Shown piece after piece: positions 3,287-12,618 of a DNA stretch of 37,863 bases; position 1 is the first letter of the stretch, and the number at the start of each line of letters is the position of its first letter. The DNA is from a virus, in the IMG/VR virus record IMGVR_UViG_3300032053_000215, positions 1 to 37,863 of that record. One strand, given 5' to 3'. The notes under the pieces were generated by a model, which was not told where the DNA came from, made no database searches, and saw only the letters and a list, made by a program, of their open reading frames with translations. A program made the translations under genes and the position numbers.

Positions 3287-3735
3287 TCCATCATTCGGCG
3301 ACGAAGGATGCCGGGACGGTTGACTGGCAACAAATCCGCAAGTACCACACGACACCGGAATCCGAAGGTGGTCCGAAGGGTGGCCCGTGGCGGGATATCG
3401 GCTACCACGGCGGGGTCGAGCTGGTGAAGACGGGGACGCTCGAGCACTACGAAATCCTGTATGGGCGGATGTGGAACCAGGCCGGAGCACATTGTCCTGG
3501 GCAGAACGAAACCGCCCTCGGCATCTGCTTCATCGGGAACTTCTCGCTGGCTCCGTGTTCCGAAGAACAGCTCATGGAAGGGGCGAAGCTCGTCGCCATG
3601 TGGACCAAGCTCTTCCACATCCCGCCGGGGGAGATTTACCCTCATAAGGAGTTCAAGGATACCGAGTGTCCGGGGACCCTGTTCGACCTCTCTGAGCTGA
3701 AGCACCTGGTCACGTACTGGCTCGCTTTTAAGTAA
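3262..3735 (+). CDS. N-acetylmuramoyl-L-alanine amidase endolysin (Amidase_2/PGRP fold)
   Basis: The product has 157 aa and no signal peptide, the size of T7 lysozyme. Zinc ligands can be placed as H10 or H11 in LIHHS, H128 in YPHKE and C136 in TECPG; Y48 in IGYHGG matches the catalytic Tyr region. The position two before the Cys is Thr, as in many PGRPs, rather than the Lys of T7 lysozyme. It would cleave the MurNAc-L-Ala bond at the end of infection. The ATG follows AGGAGG (3249-3254). It probably depends on the holin-like protein at 2842 for export. Confidence 0.88.
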   Translation: MFVPDKVLIHHSATKDAGTVDWQQIRKYHTTPESEGGPKGGPWRDIGYHGGVELVKTGTLEHYEILYGRMWNQAGAHCPGQNETALGICFIGNFSLAPCSEEQLMEGAKLVAMWTKLFHIPPGEIYPHKEFKDTECPGTLFDLSELKHLVTYWLAFK

Positions 3736-3769
3736 TCTCTCTCCTTTATATATAGGGGTAAAAAAACGC

Positions 3770-3799
3770 TTGACACCCCTCTACCTTCTGCGGTATTAC
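3770..3799 (+). promoter_or_regulatory. Sigma70-type early promoter P1
   Basis: A perfect -35 TTGACA (3770-3775) is followed after 18 bp by TATTAC (3794-3799). The -35 lies inside an inverted repeat, AGGGGT (3754-3759) and ACCCCT (3775-3780), which could be an operator. It sits in the only long gap before the early operon. Confidence 0.6.
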
Positions 3800-3879
3800 T
3801 TTAGTCGTGAAAAATAATTTCCCTACCTGTAGAATCTCGAGTGTACAGCTTGAGAAAAAAACACCCCTAAAAATAAAGC

Positions 3880-3908
3880 TTGACATCTCTACTTTGATAT
3901 GGTAATCT
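3880..3908 (+). promoter_or_regulatory. Sigma70-type early promoter P2 with extended -10
   Basis: TTGACA (3880-3885) is followed after 17 bp by TAATCT (3903-3908), preceded by TG one base upstream (extended -10). Transcription should begin near 3915. The sequence from the -35 to +1 strongly resembles P1, so the two look like a tandem duplicated promoter. A third ACCCCT lies at 3863-3868. Confidence 0.7.
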
Positions 3909-3914
3909 TTAGTT

Positions 3915-4272
3915 GACCCTCGGGGAGGGTCAGACAGCTCCTTGAAAAGTTAGGATGGTCGGACAAAGGCGGGGGAGGCCCCAGCCCTAACAGATTCCTA
4001 ACAGAAAAAAATCACTTGGAAAAGTAGGGTGGAGGCGACTGTTCAATAAACAGCTCCCGAGGACGGAGCTTCAATAAGGCAGTCGAGAATATAACTGAAG
4101 CCTGAAAAAACCAAAGTAAGAAGTATGAACTAAGACCTCGGGGGGCGGAACGGTTCGCCTCCCCATTTAAAAGCACGTTGAAGGTGACCTCGTGAAAGAA
4201 AGGCGGCACGGATGCATACGACTGCCGTTCCGACAAGTAACGAAGCCGGATACCTTGACGTGCTTTTACCTG
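3915..4272 (+). ncRNA. Highly structured untranslated leader of the early operon
   Basis: No gene is seen between 3736 and 4304. From the predicted P2 start, the RNA opens with a GACCCTC/GAGGGTC hairpin (3915-3931). GTTAGG (3949-3954) can pair with either of two CCTAAC copies (3986-3991 or 3997-4002). CGACTG/CAGTCG (4036-4085) encloses AGCTCC/GGAGCT, with TTCAATAA on both sides. A GC-rich hairpin spans 4140-4164. A long helix, AAAAGCACGT (4169-4178) with ACGTGCTTTT (4258-4267) plus AAGGT/ACCTT, encloses a roughly 65-nt branched domain. It may stabilise, attenuate or process the early transcript, or be a separate small RNA. The structure is inferred by eye. Confidence 0.55.
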
Positions 4273-4304
4273 GGGAAATCCCAAATCTAAAATGAGGAGG
4301 TCTT

Positions 4305-4625
4305 ATGATTATCGACACCGAGAAAGTTGCACGGGACATCGGGGCGTGGTACGAGGAACTTCTTCAGAACCTCGACACCGAGGTCAAGACGGAGTGTCTG
4401 CTTCTCGTCCTGCGGAAGAAGCTCCACACCAGCCGGGACAAAGACATGGAGGCCATCTTCCGTGTCGGTCAGCTCTACCACACAGCGGTTGCCTGGAAGC
4501 TCGGAAAGGTCCGAGAGGTCAAGGCCAAAATCCGGGAGAGAGAACAGGTCGAGGCGAGAGTTCGCTACGCAAAGAAAGTCATCGCCCGGAAGGAACGGCT
4601 CGAAGCTAAAAAGGAGGTCTTATGA
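4305..4625 (+). CDS. Hypothetical early protein, helical and charged
   Basis: The product has 106 aa and is the first gene behind the early leader. The ATG at 4305 follows GAGGAGGTCTT, an initiation sequence repeated at other early genes. It is predicted almost wholly helical, with a Lys/Arg/Glu-rich C-terminal half (roughly residues 65-106) that looks coiled-coil. No family is recognised. A host-takeover role is only an inference from its position. It overlaps the next gene by 4 nt (ATGA). Confidence 0.7.
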   Translation: MIIDTEKVARDIGAWYEELLQNLDTEVKTECLLLVLRKKLHTSRDKDMEAIFRVGQLYHTAVAWKLGKVREVKAKIREREQVEARVRYAKKVIARKERLEAKKEVL

Positions 4626-4981
4626 TTATTGAGGTTGTTCTTCTGTCCACGACGGACGAGGTGCGGAACGTGGATGTTCCGCAAGCGGAAGTCGATGTCA
4701 TCCACGCTCCGCTCGGAACCGTGGCCTACAAAGAGGCTCTTTGTGACCGTGCGTTCCTGTGGGGTCAGAACGACTTCCAACCACGCCGGATGCCTTCGGT
4801 CAGCGTGGGGGACGTGGTCATTCTGAAGCGGTCAGAACCGGATACGGACGGCGAGTGGCACGACCTGTTTCGTGTCGCTAGTGTCGGCTTCGACAAACTG
4901 ACTCGGGCCGAGTTTGAAGAGTACAAGAAACTCGGGAAGGTCAATCGAGTTCGGCACGCCTACGGATTCGGCGACCTGTGA
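4622..4981 (+). CDS. Hypothetical early protein
   Basis: The product has 119 aa, translationally coupled to the upstream gene by ATGA and preceded by AAGGAGGTCTT. A segment near residues 60-85 (SVSVGDVVILKRSE, then WHDLFRVASVGF) reads like a small beta-barrel, similar in feel to ASCH or PUA-like folds, but the match is too weak to assign. No catalytic motif or membrane segment is visible. Confidence 0.65.
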   Translation: MIIEVVLLSTTDEVRNVDVPQAEVDVIHAPLGTVAYKEALCDRAFLWGQNDFQPRRMPSVSVGDVVILKRSEPDTDGEWHDLFRVASVGFDKLTRAEFEEYKKLGKVNRVRHAYGFGDL

Positions 4982-4992
4982 AGGAGGGAAGA

Positions 4993-5529
4993 ATGAACAT
5001 TAGATTCTTCCGGTGTCTGGACTGTCTCACGGTCTTCACGGTTGACTACCAGTACGACCAAGAGCTTTGGGAAAAAATGGGATGTGCGTGCGGTGGTCAC
5101 ATCGAAGACCTGGGGATGGTCAAGCAGAATCGTCTCGTTAAGACGTACGAGACAACGCCCTGCGACGACAGATGCACCTGTGCTCTCGGCCCGGCGTGCA
5201 GTTGCTCGTGTGGGGGGCGGAACCACGGGACCATGAAGCTTATCAAAGTCACGCTCGACTGCGGTCCAGTCCCCCCGGTCAACCTCGGGGTCAAGAGCGT
5301 TGAGCTGGGCAAGGCGTTCCGGGACCTGTATGACAAGGCCAATGCTTCTTGGAGGAAGAAGTACGGAGCCATTACAGAGAAGAAAGACCGGGGTTACCTC
5401 CCTCGGCCTGAGTGGGATTTCTACTACGAGGGTCTCCTGCACCACCGAAAACTCTGGAAGATTCGGAACATGAAGAGGTACGGTCTCCGGCACAAACACC
5501 TGCTCAAATTCATCGAAGAGACGAAGTGA
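4993..5529 (+). CDS. Cysteine-rich putative zinc-binding phage protein
   Basis: The product has 178 aa from the ATG at 4993, which has AAGGAGG at 4981-4987; a GTG at 4978 is possible but worse placed. It has two metal-site candidates: CLDC with CACGG near the N-terminus (rubredoxin or zinc-ribbon style), and a dense cluster CDDRCTCALGPACSCSCGG followed by RNHG at about 52-75. I recall the second signature from other phage proteins of unknown function. The C-terminal half is helical and basic. It may bind nucleic acid through the Zn sites; no enzymatic motif is seen. Confidence 0.7.
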   Translation: MNIRFFRCLDCLTVFTVDYQYDQELWEKMGCACGGHIEDLGMVKQNRLVKTYETTPCDDRCTCALGPACSCSCGGRNHGTMKLIKVTLDCGPVPPVNLGVKSVELGKAFRDLYDKANASWRKKYGAITEKKDRGYLPRPEWDFYYEGLLHHRKLWKIRNMKRYGLRHKHLLKFIEETK

Positions 5530-5533
5530 TTTT

Positions 5534-5551
5534 GGGGGCCACGTGGCCCCC
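5534..5551. repeat. Perfect 18-bp palindrome
   Basis: GGGGGCCACGTGGCCCCC lies 4 nt after the upstream stop codon. It is self-complementary and GC-rich but has no T tract on its 3' side on either strand, so it is not a classical intrinsic terminator. It could be a transcript-stabilising hairpin or a protein site. Confidence 0.6.
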
Positions 5552-5560
5552 ATGTGGGAG

Positions 5561-5695
5561 GGCTTGTTAGAAGCGTTGGAGTTCTGGGACCCGGAGCCGC
5601 AGGGGGTGCGAAACCCCCTCCTACGCCACAAGTCGTAGGCTTGTTAGAAGCGTTCTGGGAGGAACGAAGACCGCAGGGGGTGCGAAACCCCCTCC
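5561..5695 (+). repeat. Tandem tRNA-sized hairpin repeat, two copies
   Basis: Two copies about 75-77 nt apart share GGCTTGTTAGAAGCGTT (5561-5577 and 5638-5654) and a longer conserved block (5597-5621 and 5671-5695). Each has a GCTT/AAGC hairpin and an AGGGGG/CCCCCT hairpin with a TGCGAAA loop. Copy 2 also has CGTTC/GAACG between them, giving three arms in tRNA order. Flanks pair crosswise: CCTACG after copy 1 with CGTAGG before copy 2, and GGGAGG before copy 1 with CCTCCC after copy 2. It fills the 254-base gap upstream of the gene at 5784. No anticodon arm or CCA end makes it a functional tRNA. Confidence 0.6.
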
Positions 5696-5706
5696 CTCCC
5701 CTCGAG

Positions 5707-5761
5707 CCTCTGCTACACCCTGAGCCAGAAAAGGGGAGCGAAAGCTTGCAGAGGGCGGCAA
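5707..5761 (+). ncRNA. Repeated three-way-junction leader RNA, copy A
   Basis: P1 is CCTCTGC (5707-5713) with GCAGAGG (5748-5754). P2 is CCC (5718-5720) with GGG (5733-5735), closing a loop that contains TGAGCCAGAAAA. P3 is AGC-GAAA-GCT (5737-5746), a GNRA hairpin. A conserved GGCAA follows P1 and can pair with GCC in the P2 loop. It lies 22 nt before the ATG at 5784. Copies B (6561) and C (7643) keep the fold with different bases. Confidence 0.75.
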
Positions 5762-5783
5762 TTCAATCTTATGAGGAGGTCTT

Positions 5784-6014
5784 ATGTCAATCGAGAAGGA
5801 TTTGGGCAAGGCGGTGGATTGGTTCGACGACATGGTGGCGTTCGTTGAGATGGTTCGGCATAACCCGCTCACCACGTCATCCTCCATCGTCGCAACCCTG
5901 GCCCACGACATGGGCGGAATCATCCGCAAGGAGCGGTGCTTCTCACCCAGAACGTCTGGGTACACGAAGCATCTCGAGCGGAAGCTCTCCGCAGAAAAAA
6001 AGGAGGAAGCATGA
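5784..6014 (+). CDS. Hypothetical small early protein
   Basis: The product has 76 aa. The ATG at 5784 follows TGAGGAGGTCTT and the repeated leader RNA copy A. It has an acidic N-terminal helix, a central stretch FVEMVRHNPLTTSSSIVATLAHDM, and a basic coiled C-terminal tail. No family is recognised. It overlaps the next gene by 4 nt (ATGA). The complex RNA upstream suggests its expression is specially controlled. Confidence 0.65.
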   Translation: MSIEKDLGKAVDWFDDMVAFVEMVRHNPLTTSSSIVATLAHDMGGIIRKERCFSPRTSGYTKHLERKLSAEKKEEA

Positions 6015-6226
6015 CAGGGAGCATGACCCCGTTCCGGGCGTGCGGCATCATCGAAGACTTCGACGGGAACGACCATACCGAAGAGGAGTACCTGTCGGCG
6101 GTCCAGTACCTTATTGATACTGGGCTGGCGTGGACGTTCCAGGGATTCTACGGACGGCTGGCAAAGGACCTGATAGACCAGGGCCTCTGCACACCGCCGG
6201 GAAAGAAAGGAAAGGTGGACGCATGA
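6011..6226 (+). CDS. Conserved small phage protein of unknown function
   Basis: The product has 71 aa. The ATG at 6011 has AGGAGG at 6001-6006 and overlaps the upstream stop. The core YLSAVQYLIDTGLAWTFQGFYG followed by RLAKDLIDQGLC resembles a small protein family I recall from many unrelated phages (YxxAxQxLIDTGxAWxLQGxxGR), with no known function. It is compact and helical. No catalytic residues can be named. Confidence 0.7.
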   Translation: MTGSMTPFRACGIIEDFDGNDHTEEEYLSAVQYLIDTGLAWTFQGFYGRLAKDLIDQGLCTPPGKKGKVDA

Positions 6227-6420
6227 GAGTACTCGGGAAGTCGTTCAAGCGGGAGTTTTCCATGAGGTGCTACCCCAGCAAAAAGCTCGTGGTCGAAGTT
6301 GCCAGAACCGAGAGCGGTATCCCGGTGCTTCGGCTGTGGGAGAAAAGAGCCAGGAACGGGAAGGTCGAGATTCCTCTCGAGACCGTTTACCAGCGGTTGC
6401 TGGTGGGGTCAGCCCGGTAG
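6223..6420 (+). CDS. Hypothetical small basic protein
   Basis: The product has 65 aa, coupled by ATGA to the upstream gene. The sequence alternates beta-like and basic segments (KKLVVEVARTESGIPVLRLW), resembling small nucleic-acid-binding beta folds, but no family can be assigned. It is the last gene before the tRNA. Confidence 0.6.
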   Translation: MRVLGKSFKREFSMRCYPSKKLVVEVARTESGIPVLRLWEKRARNGKVEIPLETVYQRLLVGSAR

Positions 6421-6436
6421 GAGAACGCCCTGGGGG

Positions 6437-6469
6437 ACCGGAGTCACGCCGACAGACCGTGGCTCCGGT
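6437..6469 (+). other. Stable hairpin upstream of the tRNA
   Basis: ACCGGAG (6437-6443) pairs with CTCCGGT (6463-6469), and CACG with CGTG inside, leaving a loop at about 6449-6457. It ends 5 nt before the tRNA and could assist tRNA 5' processing or folding. There is no T tract, so it is not a terminator. Confidence 0.5.
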
Positions 6470-6474
6470 TCCAA

Positions 6475-6548
6475 CTGGAGATGCCGGAGTGGTAACGGGA
6501 CGGGTTGCAAACCCGTATTCGGTGGTTCGATTCCACCTCTCCAGTCCA
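6475..6548 (+). tRNA. tRNA-Cys (anticodon GCA)
   Basis: The acceptor stem is CTGGAGA (6475-6481) with TCTCCAG (6538-6544). The D arm has CCG/CGG with AGTGGTAA in the loop. The anticodon stem ACGGG/CCCGT closes the loop TTGCAAA, with anticodon GCA at 6507-6509. The T arm is GGTGG-TTCGATT-CCACC. The discriminator base is T (6545), the normal tRNA-Cys identity base, and CCA is encoded (6546-6548). It lies inside the early operon between a hairpin and leader RNA copy B, so it must be cut from the early transcript. The several Cys-rich phage proteins here may explain its retention. Confidence 0.95.
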
Positions 6549-6560
6549 TTTATCTATCAG

Positions 6561-6621
6561 CTCTCACCACGCTCTGAGCCACAGCGAAAGAGGGGCCGTA
6601 AGGCCTGTGAGAGGGTGGCAA
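6561..6621 (+). ncRNA. Repeated three-way-junction leader RNA, copy B
   Basis: P1 is CTCTCAC (6561-6567) with GTGAGAG (6607-6613). P2 is CTC (6572-6574) with GAG (6590-6592), around TGAGCC and a longer A-rich loop. P3 is GGCC-GTAA-GGCC (6594-6605). GGCAA follows at 6617-6621. It starts 12 nt after the tRNA and ends 24 nt before the ATG at 6646. All three helices differ in sequence from copies A and C but remain paired. Confidence 0.75.
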
Positions 6622-6645
6622 TCTCAAATCTTATGGGGAGGTCCT

Positions 6646-6993
6646 ATGAACAAGGAGAAAGAAAAATCTCTACGGATTCGTGAGCTGGAGCGGAAGTTCG
6701 TGAAGGCTCTGGAGGGGGTTGTCGGGCAGACGGCTGGGTTCATGGAGTATGGGAACACTACCTGCGGTGAGAAGGTCATCATGGGGAAACACATCACCAT
6801 CACCTGGCAAGCCAACGCCTACGAGAAGAGTGTCCCCAAGGCCGTCACCGAGAAGTTCTTCGAGGTGGTGAACGAGTTGTACGACGACGTTCTCCCTGCA
6901 AGAAAAGGACCCCGTCGGATGGACGTTGGTGGCGGTGGGAACATCTGCTGGGAAGTGTCCTTCGAGCTGAAGAACCAGGAGAACTGGAGATGA
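6646..6993 (+). CDS. Hypothetical early protein
   Basis: The product has 115 aa. The ATG at 6646 follows GGGGAGGTCC and leader RNA copy B. It has a basic N-terminal helix, then a beta-rich centre (KVIMGKHITITW) and a short Gly-rich turn RMDVGGGGN before a final strand. Fold and function are not recognised. It overlaps the next gene by 4 nt. Confidence 0.65.
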   Translation: MNKEKEKSLRIRELERKFVKALEGVVGQTAGFMEYGNTTCGEKVIMGKHITITWQANAYEKSVPKAVTEKFFEVVNELYDDVLPARKGPRRMDVGGGGNICWEVSFELKNQENWR

Positions 6994-7199
6994 ACGCCGC
7001 TCGGTTCTTTGTCGGTTTGGCAAGTGGAGAGTTTTCCGCTCCGGTCAAACTCCGGTACGACAGCAAAGCCCTTCTCGACAAAAGAGGGAAGCTCATCGCT
7101 GAGTTCGAGTCCCAAGGCGAATGCCTTGAGTTTGCGAAGAGCCTTGTAGCTCTCGGACGCAAACTCCTGGAAAAGAAAAGAAAAAAGGAGGGGGTATGA
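6990..7199 (+). CDS. Hypothetical small early protein
   Basis: The product has 69 aa, coupled by ATGA to the upstream gene. The Lys/Arg-rich C-terminus (LLEKKRKKEGV) also encodes the AAGGAGG ribosome binding site of the next gene. It is mostly helical, and no family is recognised. Confidence 0.6.
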   Translation: MNAARFFVGLASGEFSAPVKLRYDSKALLDKRGKLIAEFESQGECLEFAKSLVALGRKLLEKKRKKEGV

Positions 7200-7591
7200 A
7201 AATCTACCAGCACATTGCAACACGGTTGGCGGCAATCATCAACTGTGTCGAGGCCCAGAACAAAGAATGGGAGGAGAAGCACCGGGCGTTCCTCAATAAC
7301 TCCCTGATATCCTCTCCGAGTGGAAGCGGCATCGACTCCGGCACGAAGTTTGATTGGGACGGCTCCGAGCCGAACAGTCTCCGGTTTTTTACGGCGTTCC
7401 ATCACATGGACGAGGGCGGTGGTTACGATGGGTGGACCGAACACTCCATCGTTGTCCACCCGGACCTTCAGTTCGGGTTTACGCTTCATGTCTCTGGGAA
7501 GAACCGGAACGGAATTAAGGAGTACCTCGTTGATACCTACTACGAGTGGCTAAACTCGGAGGTAGACAAACTCGGCTTTTCGCTTCGATGA
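7196..7591 (+). CDS. Conserved phage protein of unknown function
   Basis: The product has 131 aa, overlapping the upstream gene by 4 nt, with AAGGAGGGGGT as ribosome binding site. The central region HHMDEGGGYDGWTEHSIVV followed by HPDLQFGFTLHVSGKNRNGIKEYLVD resembles a phage protein family I recall with the same HHMD-YDGWTEH and F-SGRNRN-IKDYL pattern. Function is unknown. It is an acidic alpha/beta protein with no membrane segment. Confidence 0.7.
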   Translation: MKIYQHIATRLAAIINCVEAQNKEWEEKHRAFLNNSLISSPSGSGIDSGTKFDWDGSEPNSLRFFTAFHHMDEGGGYDGWTEHSIVVHPDLQFGFTLHVSGKNRNGIKEYLVDTYYEWLNSEVDKLGFSLR

Positions 7592-7599
7592 CCTCGGCA

Positions 7600-7637
7600 G
7601 GGACCGAACATCCTACTTGTCAAATATGTTCGGTCCC
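7600..7637 (+). other. Long stable hairpin upstream of leader RNA copy C
   Basis: GGGACCGAACAT (7600-7611) is perfectly complementary to ATGTTCGGTCCC (7626-7637), a 12-bp stem with a 14-nt loop. It lacks a T tract, so termination is unlikely; it probably insulates, processes or stabilises the transcript. Confidence 0.6.
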
Positions 7638-7642
7638 GTAAG

Positions 7643-7697
7643 CCTCCGCTATACTCTGAGCCAGAAAAGAGGACCGAAAGGTTGCGGGGGGAGGCAA
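7643..7697 (+). ncRNA. Repeated three-way-junction leader RNA, copy C
   Basis: P1 is CCTCCGC (7643-7649) with GCGGGGG (7684-7690), including one G-U pair. P2 is CTC (7654-7656) with GAG (7669-7671), closing the same TGAGCCAGAAAA loop as copy A. P3 is ACC-GAAA-GGT (7673-7682). GGCAA follows at 7693-7697. It ends 22 nt before the ATG at 7720. Confidence 0.75.
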
Positions 7698-7719
7698 ATC
7701 AATCACAAGAGGAGGTCTC

Positions 7720-8292
7720 ATGTTAATCTCAAAGGTGAGCCAGGTCAGTCTGGGCCTGGCTATGGAAGCGGTCAACCGTCTCTACAACGGGAACATCCGT
7801 TGGAAGCGGTTCGACCAGCTTAACAAGGCGGGGACTCGCTTTCGTGTCACGCTCACCGTCAACAATTCTCACCTCCCCGGCTCTCGCAGGAGCCACCGGG
7901 GTCGGAGGATAGCGGCGGCGTGCTGGCACGTTCACGGCGAGTTCTTCGATGCTCTCCCGAAAGAGGCTGTCATCCGCCTCGGGCGGGAGGGGGTTCATCG
8001 CCCCGGAGACCCCTGGAAGGACCAGCAGGTCGGCTCCATGTTCCAGCCGATGATGTTCTCCGAGGCGTGTGAGTGCGGAGGCCGAGTCGAGAAGACGGCT
8101 CTCGGTACAGCGAAGGTGAAGCAGGTCCGCCAGGCCGACATGACGGCGGCGTGCTTCGGTGTTCAGGTCTGGGGCCTGACCGCCTGTAGTCATTGTTCCT
8201 ACAGGAACACCGACGACTGCGGCGGGAAAGAAATCCTGGATAGGATAGAGAGAGGGGAGTTCCCGAAGACGGGCCTCCCGGAAGCGAGGTGA
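7720..8292 (+). CDS. Conserved phage protein of unknown function
   Basis: The product has 190 aa. The ATG follows AGAGGAGGTCTC and leader RNA copy C. The run RFRVTLTVNNSHLPGSRRS, then GRRIAAACWHVHGEFFDAL and FSEACECGG, resembles a hypothetical family I recall from actinobacterial and other phages. Several Cys and His (CWHVHG, CECGG, CSHCSYRNTDDC) suggest a bound metal. No enzymatic assignment is possible. Confidence 0.7.
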   Translation: MLISKVSQVSLGLAMEAVNRLYNGNIRWKRFDQLNKAGTRFRVTLTVNNSHLPGSRRSHRGRRIAAACWHVHGEFFDALPKEAVIRLGREGVHRPGDPWKDQQVGSMFQPMMFSEACECGGRVEKTALGTAKVKQVRQADMTAACFGVQVWGLTACSHCSYRNTDDCGGKEILDRIERGEFPKTGLPEAR

Positions 8293-8347
8293 CCATGTAC
8301 AAGTGCATCGACAGTCTCGTCAAAGAGCGAGAGAAGGAGGATTGAGA

Positions 8348-8530
8348 ATGGATACGTACGAACAGAAAGTGCTTCTGTTCAAGGAAATCCATGACCTGGA
8401 CAAAGACATAGTCCGCCTGGTCTTTGTGGAGCAGGACCTCGCCGAACAGATTCAGAAGGCGAAGAAGAAGAGAGAAGAACTCTCTGCTCGACTGAGCAAG
8501 CTCGAGATTGAACTTCTTAATCTCGGATGA
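8348..8530 (+). CDS. Small coiled-coil protein
   Basis: The product has 60 aa. The ATG at 8348 follows AAGGAGG (8334-8340). Almost the whole chain fits a heptad pattern rich in Leu, Ile, Glu and Lys (KIHDLDKDIVRLVF-type, then KKKREELSARLSKLEIELL), so it probably forms a helical dimer. No family is recognised. Confidence 0.6.
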   Translation: MDTYEQKVLLFKEIHDLDKDIVRLVFVEQDLAEQIQKAKKKREELSARLSKLEIELLNLG

Positions 8531-8567
8531 TGCTGTGTTGGTTCAATCTTAATATTAGGAGGACAGC

Positions 8568-8792
8568 ATGAACGCTGAAAAACTACTGACGAAACTGGTG
8601 AGCTTCATCAACTCACAGACGGAGAAGACGGACGAAGAGATGAGGGAGCTTCGCAAGAAGGAGGCTCTGCTCGAGTCGATGCCCTTCCTTGAACGGGTCG
8701 AGTACCTCCAGGCTGTCGCAGAAGCCAAGGGGAAAATCGACCTTCTCGTGGGGCAGAAGAAGTTCTACGACTCTATCTCTAGCAATGCGTAG
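8568..8792 (+). CDS. Small helical protein
   Basis: The product has 74 aa. The ATG at 8568 follows TTAGGAGG. TGCTGT (8531-8536) can pair with ACAGCA (8563-8568), which would trap the ribosome site and start in a stem; this could modulate translation. The protein is helical and charged (EKTDEEMRELRKKEALLES). No function is recognised. Confidence 0.6.
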   Translation: MNAEKLLTKLVSFINSQTEKTDEEMRELRKKEALLESMPFLERVEYLQAVAEAKGKIDLLVGQKKFYDSISSNA

Positions 8793-8803
8793 GGCTGGTT
8801 GGA

Positions 8804-8832
8804 TGGTGGCGGTGCTCAATCCACCGCCACCA
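8804..8832 (+). other. 10-bp perfect hairpin before the sigma-like gene
   Basis: TGGTGGCGGT (8804-8813) pairs perfectly with ACCGCCACCA (8823-8832) over a 9-nt loop, 20 nt before the next ATG. No T tract follows, so a role in mRNA stability or local pausing is more likely than termination. Confidence 0.55.
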
Positions 8833-8852
8833 TAACTCATCGAGGAGGTGAT

Positions 8853-9380
8853 ATGCAGTTAAAAAAATGGGAGCACGAAACCATCAAGAGTGTTGCGGCA
8901 GAGCAGTTGTGTGGGGAGGTTGTCGTTGACTTCCTCGAGCTGGTGAATGTCGGGGTGCTGGCTCTTTTACAAAAGAAGTCGCAGGACAGTCGGTTCATTA
9001 GCGAGACGCTGGTCAGGAACATCGCTCGGAGGAGAATGATTGACTACAAACTCCAGGTTAAATACCTTGGAACTTCTGGGCGGGGTGGGAGTATCTATCG
9101 TCGGTACAAGACGCTCCAGGAGAACCCCCCGGACGCTCCTCTTTTTGTTCCTATCGCAGAACAGCACCCCATGGACCAACAAAAGAACACAGAAGAAGAG
9201 GCGTTTCTGAGCATGGCGATTGAGAATGCTAAAGAGGTCCTCGGAGGAGAGATGGTACACGCTCTCCTTGAAGGACAGACCAACGAGGAGATACGCTGGT
9301 CTGTTCCGGGAACACGCTGGCGTGACGTTCAGCGAATCAGACGGACGTTCCGGGAGATACTCTCGGGACATGGAATCTAA
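8853..9380 (+). CDS. Possible sigma-70-like transcription factor
   Basis: The product has 175 aa from the ATG at 8853, which has GAGGAGGTG just upstream. Residues 25-65 (FLELVNVGVLALLQKKSQDS, then RFISETLVRNIARRRMIDYKL) read like sigma region 2, where a helix ending in ARRxMIDY precedes the -10-binding part. The C-terminal segment (NEEIRWSVPGTRWRDVQRIRRTFREIL) could be a region 4-type HTH. It sits at the end of the early operon, just upstream of the first bipartite motif, as expected for a middle-gene factor. Similarity is partial; another DNA-binding role is possible. Confidence 0.45.
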   Translation: MQLKKWEHETIKSVAAEQLCGEVVVDFLELVNVGVLALLQKKSQDSRFISETLVRNIARRRMIDYKLQVKYLGTSGRGGSIYRRYKTLQENPPDAPLFVPIAEQHPMDQQKNTEEEAFLSMAIENAKEVLGGEMVHALLEGQTNEEIRWSVPGTRWRDVQRIRRTFREILSGHGI

Positions 9381-9647: not shown

Positions 9648-9685
9648 AAGGGGTGGCATTCCAAGGGGAGTGCCACCCCTTTTTT
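9648..9685 (+). terminator. Strong intrinsic terminator of the early operon
   Basis: AAGGGGTGGCA (9648-9658) pairs with TGCCACCCCTT, starting at 9671 and running directly into a T tract. It ends 5 nt after the previous gene's stop region begins and closes the early operon. Confidence 0.9.
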
Positions 9686-10966: not shown

Positions 10967-12370
10967 ATGATTATGATTGAGAAGTGGAATAATTTGAGCC
11001 GGGTCGTGTCGTTTGACACGAAGGCGGAGGAGGCCGACTTCAAGGCCGCTCTTCGGTTCGATGTCCCGAATTCCTTCTGGATTAGCCGCTACCGGGGCGG
11101 GTGGGACGGGACCTACTCCTTCTTCAACCGCCGTAACTCAACCTTCCCTACGGGCCTCCTAGACACCCTCCCGGCCCCTCTCCAGGAACGCCTCGAGGTC
11201 GTAGACCGCCGGGTCCGGCCCGAGCGGAACAGCCGTCTATTGAGAATGGAGGAGCTGGTAGACATGGAGTTTCGGGACTACCAGGCAGAGACCATCAGCC
11301 GGGCTGTCGAACTGGAACGCTGTGCTATCGAGTCGCCAACCGGGTCCGGGAAGACGGAGATTGGGATTGGTCTGGTCTTTGTCCTGGCTGTGCGGACCCT
11401 CTTCTGTGTCCACCTCGAGAACCTGCTGTGGCAAGCCAAAGAGCGGTTTGAGGGTAGGGGTTTCAAGGTTGGGGTCATTAACGCCGATACCTGGGACCCC
11501 AAAGAGATAACCATCGCCATGGTCCCCACCCTCTACTCCCGGATGAGGAACGACCAGAAGTACGTCAAGGACTTCCTGGCGAAGAGCGTTGATTGCCTCA
11601 TCCTGGACGAGTGCCACCACGTCGGCTCCGCCAGCTCCTGGGAGCTTCCGGCGAAGAACTGCAACGCCTACTACCGCTTCGGTCTGAGTGCCACGACCAT
11701 GCTCAAGGACGACCTATCTAACGCCAGGTTAGTTGGGCAGACAGGACAGGTCATTACCGCTGTGGGGAAGAAGGAACTCATCGAGAGAGGCATCATCGCC
11801 CAGCCTATCATCAACATGGTCTGCAACGAAACGCTGTTCAAAAAGTACGACAATCTCAACTACCAAGCTGTCTACAGGTTAGCGGTTGAGGAGAACATGG
11901 TACGTAACTTCCTCGTCTGTCGGATAGCCTCGGAGAAGATGGACGAGGGGAAGCCCGTGCTGGTGATAGTACACACCGTCCGGCACGCCCAGCAACTCAT
12001 GGGGAAGTTCTCAGACAGGAACCTCGAGAGGGTCCGGCTTATCACAGGGGCTGTGGACGGGCAAGACCGCCAGGACCTTATCAAGGACCTGAACTCGGGG
12101 AAAATCCTGGGTATTGTTGCCACTCCCGTCTTCGACGAGGGGGCCGACATTCCAAATCTACGGGTCCTGGTTCTGGGAGGTGGGGGGAAGAGTCCTATCA
12201 AGGTCATCCAGCGTATGGGGAGGGGGATGAGGAGGAAGGCTGAGGGGAGCAACACCGTAGAGATTTTTGACTTCCTGGATGTCACCAACAAGTACACTCG
12301 GAGACACGCTCAACAGCGGATGAAGGTCTATTCTGGAGAGGGGTTTGAAGTTGGTAAGATTGTTATATAA
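10967..12370 (+). CDS. SF2 DNA helicase, UvsW-like
   Basis: The product has 467 aa. The Q/Walker A region is RDYQAETISRAVE and ESPTGSGKT (K129), the DEAD-box variant is DECHH (214-218), motif III is SAT (241-243), and motif VI is QRMGRGMRR. An N-terminal domain of about 100 residues precedes the helicase core, as in T4 UvsW and related repair helicases. UvsW-type enzymes remodel forks and R-loops and switch replication from origin- to recombination-dependent mode. ATG at 10967 or 10973 are both possible and no strong ribosome site is visible. Iteron-like repeats follow directly. Confidence 0.88.
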   Translation: MIMIEKWNNLSRVVSFDTKAEEADFKAALRFDVPNSFWISRYRGGWDGTYSFFNRRNSTFPTGLLDTLPAPLQERLEVVDRRVRPERNSRLLRMEELVDMEFRDYQAETISRAVELERCAIESPTGSGKTEIGIGLVFVLAVRTLFCVHLENLLWQAKERFEGRGFKVGVINADTWDPKEITIAMVPTLYSRMRNDQKYVKDFLAKSVDCLILDECHHVGSASSWELPAKNCNAYYRFGLSATTMLKDDLSNARLVGQTGQVITAVGKKELIERGIIAQPIINMVCNETLFKKYDNLNYQAVYRLAVEENMVRNFLVCRIASEKMDEGKPVLVIVHTVRHAQQLMGKFSDRNLERVRLITGAVDGQDRQDLIKDLNSGKILGIVATPVFDEGADIPNLRVLVLGGGGKSPIKVIQRMGRGMRRKAEGSNTVEIFDFLDVTNKYTRRHAQQRMKVYSGEGFEVGKIVI

Positions 12371-12373
12371 CCC

Positions 12374-12445
12374 ATCATGTAATACATCATGTAATACATC
12401 ATGTAATACATCATGTAATACATCATGTAATACATCATGTAATAC
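12374..12445. repeat. Six perfect 12-bp tandem repeats (iteron-like)
   Basis: The unit ATCATGTAATAC occurs six times head-to-tail (12374-12445) starting 3 nt after the helicase stop. Each junction contains the interrupted palindrome ATGTA-A-TACAT, so a dimeric DNA-binding protein could occupy every unit. Degenerate sites recur at 12481-12492, 12596-12606 and 12608-12618, on the far side of an AT-rich block. Confidence 0.9.
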
Positions 12446-12618
12446 AATACTAACAATCAGTAAAAAACCCACTACTATTTTGTGTCATACATTTCGTCCT
12501 ATTAAGAATATTAAGATATTAAGATATTACGACGGGGTAATTCAAAAGAATAACGAAGTGATTCTGAGCTATTCCGACGAACGCAAAACCACGAAATGTA
12601 TTACATCATGTCATACAT
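12446..12618. other. AT-rich block with flanking palindromes, candidate replication origin or control region
   Basis: No gene is supported in 12371-12684. The block is much more AT-rich than its surroundings and contains three TATTAAGA copies (12500, 12509, 12517) plus a degenerate fourth, resembling a DNA-unwinding element. Palindromic sites ATGTATTACAT (12596-12606) and ATGTCATACAT (12608-12618) close it. Setting between helicase and DnaB genes fits an origin; an operator or partition site is the alternative. Confidence 0.5.

Follow-up and report, generated by a model that had tools for sequence, protein, structure and literature searches.

We showed that the same small three-way-junction RNA precedes three early genes of an unclassified bacterial virus, and that its fold is itself under selection, as judged from the pattern of base changes. 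The window, which is the whole stretch of DNA analysed (37,863 nucleotides, IMG/VR record IMGVR_UViG_3300032053_000215), encodes a phage-type primase, helicases, a DNA polymerase, a UvsX-like recombinase and SbcCD. The most probable role of the fold is protection or control of each message. The RNA may act in cis as an intercistronic module structuring the 5' ends of processed early messages, with an effect on stability, translation or both, and we give this reading a probability of about 0.36. If it functions as proposed, it would be a compact modular 5' leader reused by the phage on unrelated genes, a testable case of cutting, protection or co-regulation of early phage messages, and possibly a three-way-junction pseudoknot countering RNA decay in a DNA phage.

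The three copies (A, B and C) and their parts are listed below.
5707-5761, + strand: copy A, three-way junction; P1 5707-5713/5748-5754, P2 5718-5721/5732-5735, P2 loop GAGCCAGAAA at 5722-5731, P3 5736-5739/5744-5747 with loop GAAA; candidate pseudoknot GCC 5724-5726 with GGC 5757-5759; GGCAA 5757-5761
6561-6621, + strand: copy B, three-way junction; P1 6561-6567/6607-6613, P2 6572-6575/6589-6592, P2 loop GAGCCACAGCGAA, P3 6593-6597/6602-6606 with loop GUAA; candidate pseudoknot GCC 6578-6580 with GGC 6617-6619, extendable to GCCAC/GUGGC; GGCAA 6617-6621
7643-7697, + strand: copy C, three-way junction; P1 7643-7649/7684-7690, P2 7654-7657/7668-7671, P3 7672-7675/7680-7683 with loop GAAA; candidate pseudoknot GCC 7660-7662 with GGC 7693-7695; GGCAA 7693-7697

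The order in all copies is P1 (7 bp), a 4-nt joiner YAYR, P2, P3, P1', 2-3 nt and GGCAA; P2, P3 and P1' abut without linker, the sole joiner being that between P1 and P2. The P2 loop (10 nt in A and C, 13 in B) contains GAGCCA, and the ATG lies 22, 24 and 22 nt after GGCAA in A, B and C. A first-pass annotation had proposed this repeat, and its coordinates, P1, the GNRA loop, GGCAA and the distance to the ATG all hold. Its P2 helix also stood, with a length of 4 bp in all copies (CCCU/AGGG in A, CUCU/AGAG in B and C) instead of the claimed 3 bp, while its P3 hairpin (given as AGC/GCT, GGCC/GGCC and ACC/GGT) had to be extended to 4 bp in A and C and 5 bp in B, with a closing G.U pair and a GNRA loop in all three. 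The GCC-GGC pseudoknot is a plausible candidate pairing resting on complementarity and conservation; its columns are invariant across the three copies and therefore lie beyond the reach of covariation.

The fold was evaluated in a model-based, structure-aware alignment, which replaced RNAalifold on a MAFFT alignment, where P1 is misregistered because P3 and the loop of copy B are longer. In this alignment, which is biased towards the structure and holds three sequences from one virus genome, all 55 of 55 countable pair cells were standard and none was broken. Two-sided changes were found in 8 of the 19 pairs (5 in P1, where A versus B is also readable as one indel per arm, 1 in P2 and 2 in P3), and one additional stem change yields a U-G pair. 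The paired cells amounted to 100% compared with 89.6% in shuffles, and the 8 two-sided changes compared with 3.0 in shuffles, being reached in 1 of 500. When partners were slid by 1-3 columns, paired cells dropped to 39-57%. When equal numbers of stem changes were placed at random in a simple simulation, the share of trials that preserved as many pairs was 1.2%, 0.5% and 0.2% in the three comparisons. Since the paired bases changed together, we read the fold as selected, and the covariation that the first-pass annotation had called real was borne out. The covariance model proposed there, when built from A and C only, recovered copy B (32.8 bits, E=4e-9); no further convincing copy was found with it within the window, where the next match had E=0.6. 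A loose structural descriptor, with sequence free except for GNRA, the GCC of loop 2 and the GGC behind P1, gave 11 background matches in 2.9 Mb (both strands), corresponding to ~0.15 expected per window versus 3 seen.

The first genes behind the copies and the start modules are as follows.
5784-6014, + strand: next gene 3' of copy A, product of 76 aa with a weak phrog_19420 match (function unknown)
6646-6993, + strand: next gene 3' of copy B, product of 115 aa without match
7720-8292, + strand: next gene 3' of copy C, product of 190 aa; its relatives in actinobacteriophages have no known function
5762-5786, + strand: start module of copy A, with AAUC-containing spacer, SD GGAGGU at 5775-5780 and ATG at 5784
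6622-6648 and 7698-7722, + strand: similar start modules with junction, at copies B and C
4286-4316 and 4603-4633: start modules without junction, the second of looser likeness

The three downstream genes are mutually unrelated (not paralogous), and the RNA is therefore a reusable module that moves independently of protein. The start modules follow the pattern AAUC...GAGGAGGUC..AUG, and the SD sits 13-15 nt 3' of the structure, outside it. Copies A and C share 81% identity over 95 nt, SD included.

Each copy starts 5-14 nt past a hairpin or a tRNA gene.
5555-5697, + strand: two repeats GGCUUGUUAGAAGCGUU...CCGCAGGGGGUGCGAAACCCCCUCC adjoining copy A upstream, hairpins without U tract, z -3.0
6475-6548, + strand: tRNA-Cys (GCA), ending 12 nt before P1 of copy B
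7600-7637, + strand: perfect 12-bp hairpin GGGACCGAACAU...AUGUUCGGUCCC without U tract, ending 5 nt before P1 of copy C

The repeats at 5555-5697 can be described as GGCUUGUUAGAAGCGUU...GGGGGUGCGAAACCCCC, ending in GGGGGUGCGAAACCCCC, with T-arm-like hairpins. Between the upstream hairpin or tRNA and P1 there is no room for an ordinary promoter. TTGACA promoter-like sites were recognised by eye far upstream, near 3770 and 3886, and a promoter consensus scan gave a site count about equal to chance. The first clear terminator with a U tract is at 9648-9681. No U-tract hairpin was found 3' of the copies, which rules out attenuation by an intrinsic terminator. From the missing promoter space, the promoter-like sites far upstream and the terminator at 9648-9681, the copies look intercistronic, within one early transcript. 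Because they directly follow a hairpin or tRNA-Cys, a processing or insulation role is favoured over a promoter-proximal leader. The stretch at 3735-4300 has ~550 nt without obvious gene, in which the TTGACA sites are followed by a strongly folded ~370 nt (z -3.7); it had no Rfam match and is a possible structured phage RNA.

From this arrangement we infer transcription as one unit, cutting, protection and an effect on translation. A long early transcript would be cleaved where the tRNA or hairpin precedes each copy, and the three-way junction would then be the 5' end of each daughter message. The GCC-GGC pseudoknot would probably lock the compact junction, which may shield the message from 5'-end-dependent decay and insulate the SD downstream. 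The upstream hairpins without U tracts were counted as support for processing. In vitro, a flaviviral three-way-junction RNA stops bacterial RNase J1, and this depends on its fold (PMC5760640); Bacillus messages are stabilised by 5' roadblocks (PMC3997798). Counting against this reading, GAGCCA, AAA and GGCAA are conserved although unpaired, which suggests that they make a specific contact, a feature not needed for simple end protection; in longer contexts the predicted P1 probability falls to ~0.5 in B and C, and a helix of 12 bp is short for RNase III. The junction pseudoknot could be a DNA-phage counterpart of exoribonuclease-resistant RNA (xrRNA) that halts 5'-3' decay by the host where processed early messages begin or end, a version that we consider doubtful.

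A translational operator is possible and almost as likely as the processing module; the junction would then be bound by a protein of phage or host origin that regulates the three mini-operons together. Conserved unpaired bases (GAGCCA loop, GNRA loop and GGCAA) among freely varying helices usually mark a site for a protein or ligand, and one module recurring before three unrelated genes resembles a regulon. The T4 gp32 pseudoknot and RegA sites are precedents, being RNA targets that lie, as the window RNA does, 5' of phage cistrons. RegA-type sites, however, overlap the SD and start codon, whereas here the structure and the SD are 13-15 nt apart and binding would have to act sterically; moreover, no candidate binder was identified. 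The absence of any present RNA function is quite unlikely, although a start cassette duplicated twice and drifting, with pairing by chance or from a DNA-level palindrome, would agree with the likeness of A and C including the SD and with the unremarkable single-sequence folding energies (z -0.6, -1.0 and -1.8). Against such drift stand the eight pairs changed on both sides with none broken, and the 0.2-1.2% of random placements that keep as many pairs.

The first-pass annotation had left riboswitch-like, protein-binding and ribozyme functions open; a riboswitch or ribozyme is less likely than the module and the operator. For a ligand- or temperature-sensing switch, the 5' strand of P1 (CCUC-like) would alternate between P1' and the SD, with which it is predicted to pair in all three copies (-8.7, -7.3 and -12.4 kcal/mol), and pseudoknotted junctions, common in riboswitches, were counted in its favour. 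However, the SD is constant while the P1 5' strand drifts (CCUCU, CUCUC, CCUCC) with P1' and not with the SD, which weakens this explanation; with no Rfam riboswitch match, no terminator behind the copies and no recognisable pathway shared by the downstream genes, we regard the switch as improbable. A small self-cleaving ribozyme making the 5' ends itself would suit a compact, possibly pseudoknotted junction with a conserved unpaired core recurring at message boundaries, but no Rfam model, ribozyme families included, matches at E<=5, and to our knowledge the part order fits neither hammerhead, HDV, twister nor pistol, making it very unlikely.

In the Rfam 15 search at gathering score, the tRNA was the sole match in the whole window; at E<=5 over 5500-8900, no family matched at the leaders, known riboswitch and ribozyme models included. 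Relatives were searched in the viral contig collection using two core patterns and one looser pattern, and the matches listed included chance matches only, as judged by pairing and model score. The strict pattern had no match in the genome contig collection, and blastn searches of phages with each copy returned short chance matches at best. Among 81 loci, nearly all around DNA-polymerase relatives (25-31% identity), no model match was better than E=3. Among loci around relatives of the copy-C gene, the best match (L250, E=0.011) pairs P1 only and was not accepted as a relative. L009 was rejected as an independent relative, since it is a piece of this very virus with 100% identity. No relatives of the copy-C gene were found in the genome contig collection. 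The junction RNA thus matches no Rfam 15 family and, on present sequence searches, is a cis-acting phage leader RNA variant with one virus as its sole source so far.

Of described phenomena, the nearest that we found is ESAS (extended start-associated sequences), known from cluster K mycobacteriophages (PMC3203893), likewise a repeated inverted-repeat element just 5' of the starts of many small unrelated genes, with unknown function. The arms of ESAS, an imperfect inverted repeat of 17 bp, are conserved in sequence (PMC3203893), whereas the window RNA, by inspection, forms a three-way junction whose arms vary and whose loops are conserved, with a candidate pseudoknot. The flaviviral xrRNA also combines a three-way junction with a pseudoknot between a hairpin loop and sequence 3' of the junction (a candidate here), but the window RNA would use the loop of its first hairpin, differs in helix lengths and sequence, and has no Rfam match. 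The RNase III-processed early mRNAs of T7 and the SP82/Bacillus 5' stabilisers resemble the arrangement proposed for the window, in which hairpins separate groups of cistrons on a polycistronic early transcript; those systems use simple hairpins or polypurine SD-like stabilisers, whereas the window has a repeated junction.

The copy-C gene has a homologue in Mycobacterium phage Fowlmouth, gene 42. In Fowlmouth and its relative MrMiyagi, the order of tRNA-like minihelix, variable-stem hairpin, SD and small gene is repeated 11 times each. The 11 acceptor/T-arm minihelices of Fowlmouth, without anticodon arm, extend from 33.7 to 40.7 kb, and mononucleotide shuffles give 0.27 T-arm motifs.
33793, 34477, 35003, 35868, 36145, 36912: minihelices, as record positions, in MH834613.1 28000-69660 (L256)
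37659, 38047, 39468, 39965, 40588: minihelices, as record positions, in MH834613.1 (L256), continued

The same series is present in MrMiyagi (L257), and the hairpin after each minihelix has a variable stem and a conserved-looking loop. ARAGORN and Rfam, when applied to Fowlmouth, detected a real tRNA-Gln alone and missed the minihelices, which are unannotated in the phage record; a literature search of limited coverage found no published description of them, which is weak evidence. They are possibly RNase P/Z processing sites between genes. Their sequences are unrelated to the window junction while the part order is similar, and this similar layout was counted as support for the processed-message reading.

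Other repeats were observed in the window. TGCCAAG-N10-TTTTGGTGACTATTAYA occurs in four copies, at 9685, 14777, 24538 and 30509, upstream of gene blocks, and is a likely phage middle or late promoter. A tandem 12-bp repeat ATGTAATACATC at 12353-12460 is possibly an origin-like or binding array. A 160-nt direct repeat with 71% identity (159-318 and 909-1068) lies within a long reading frame.
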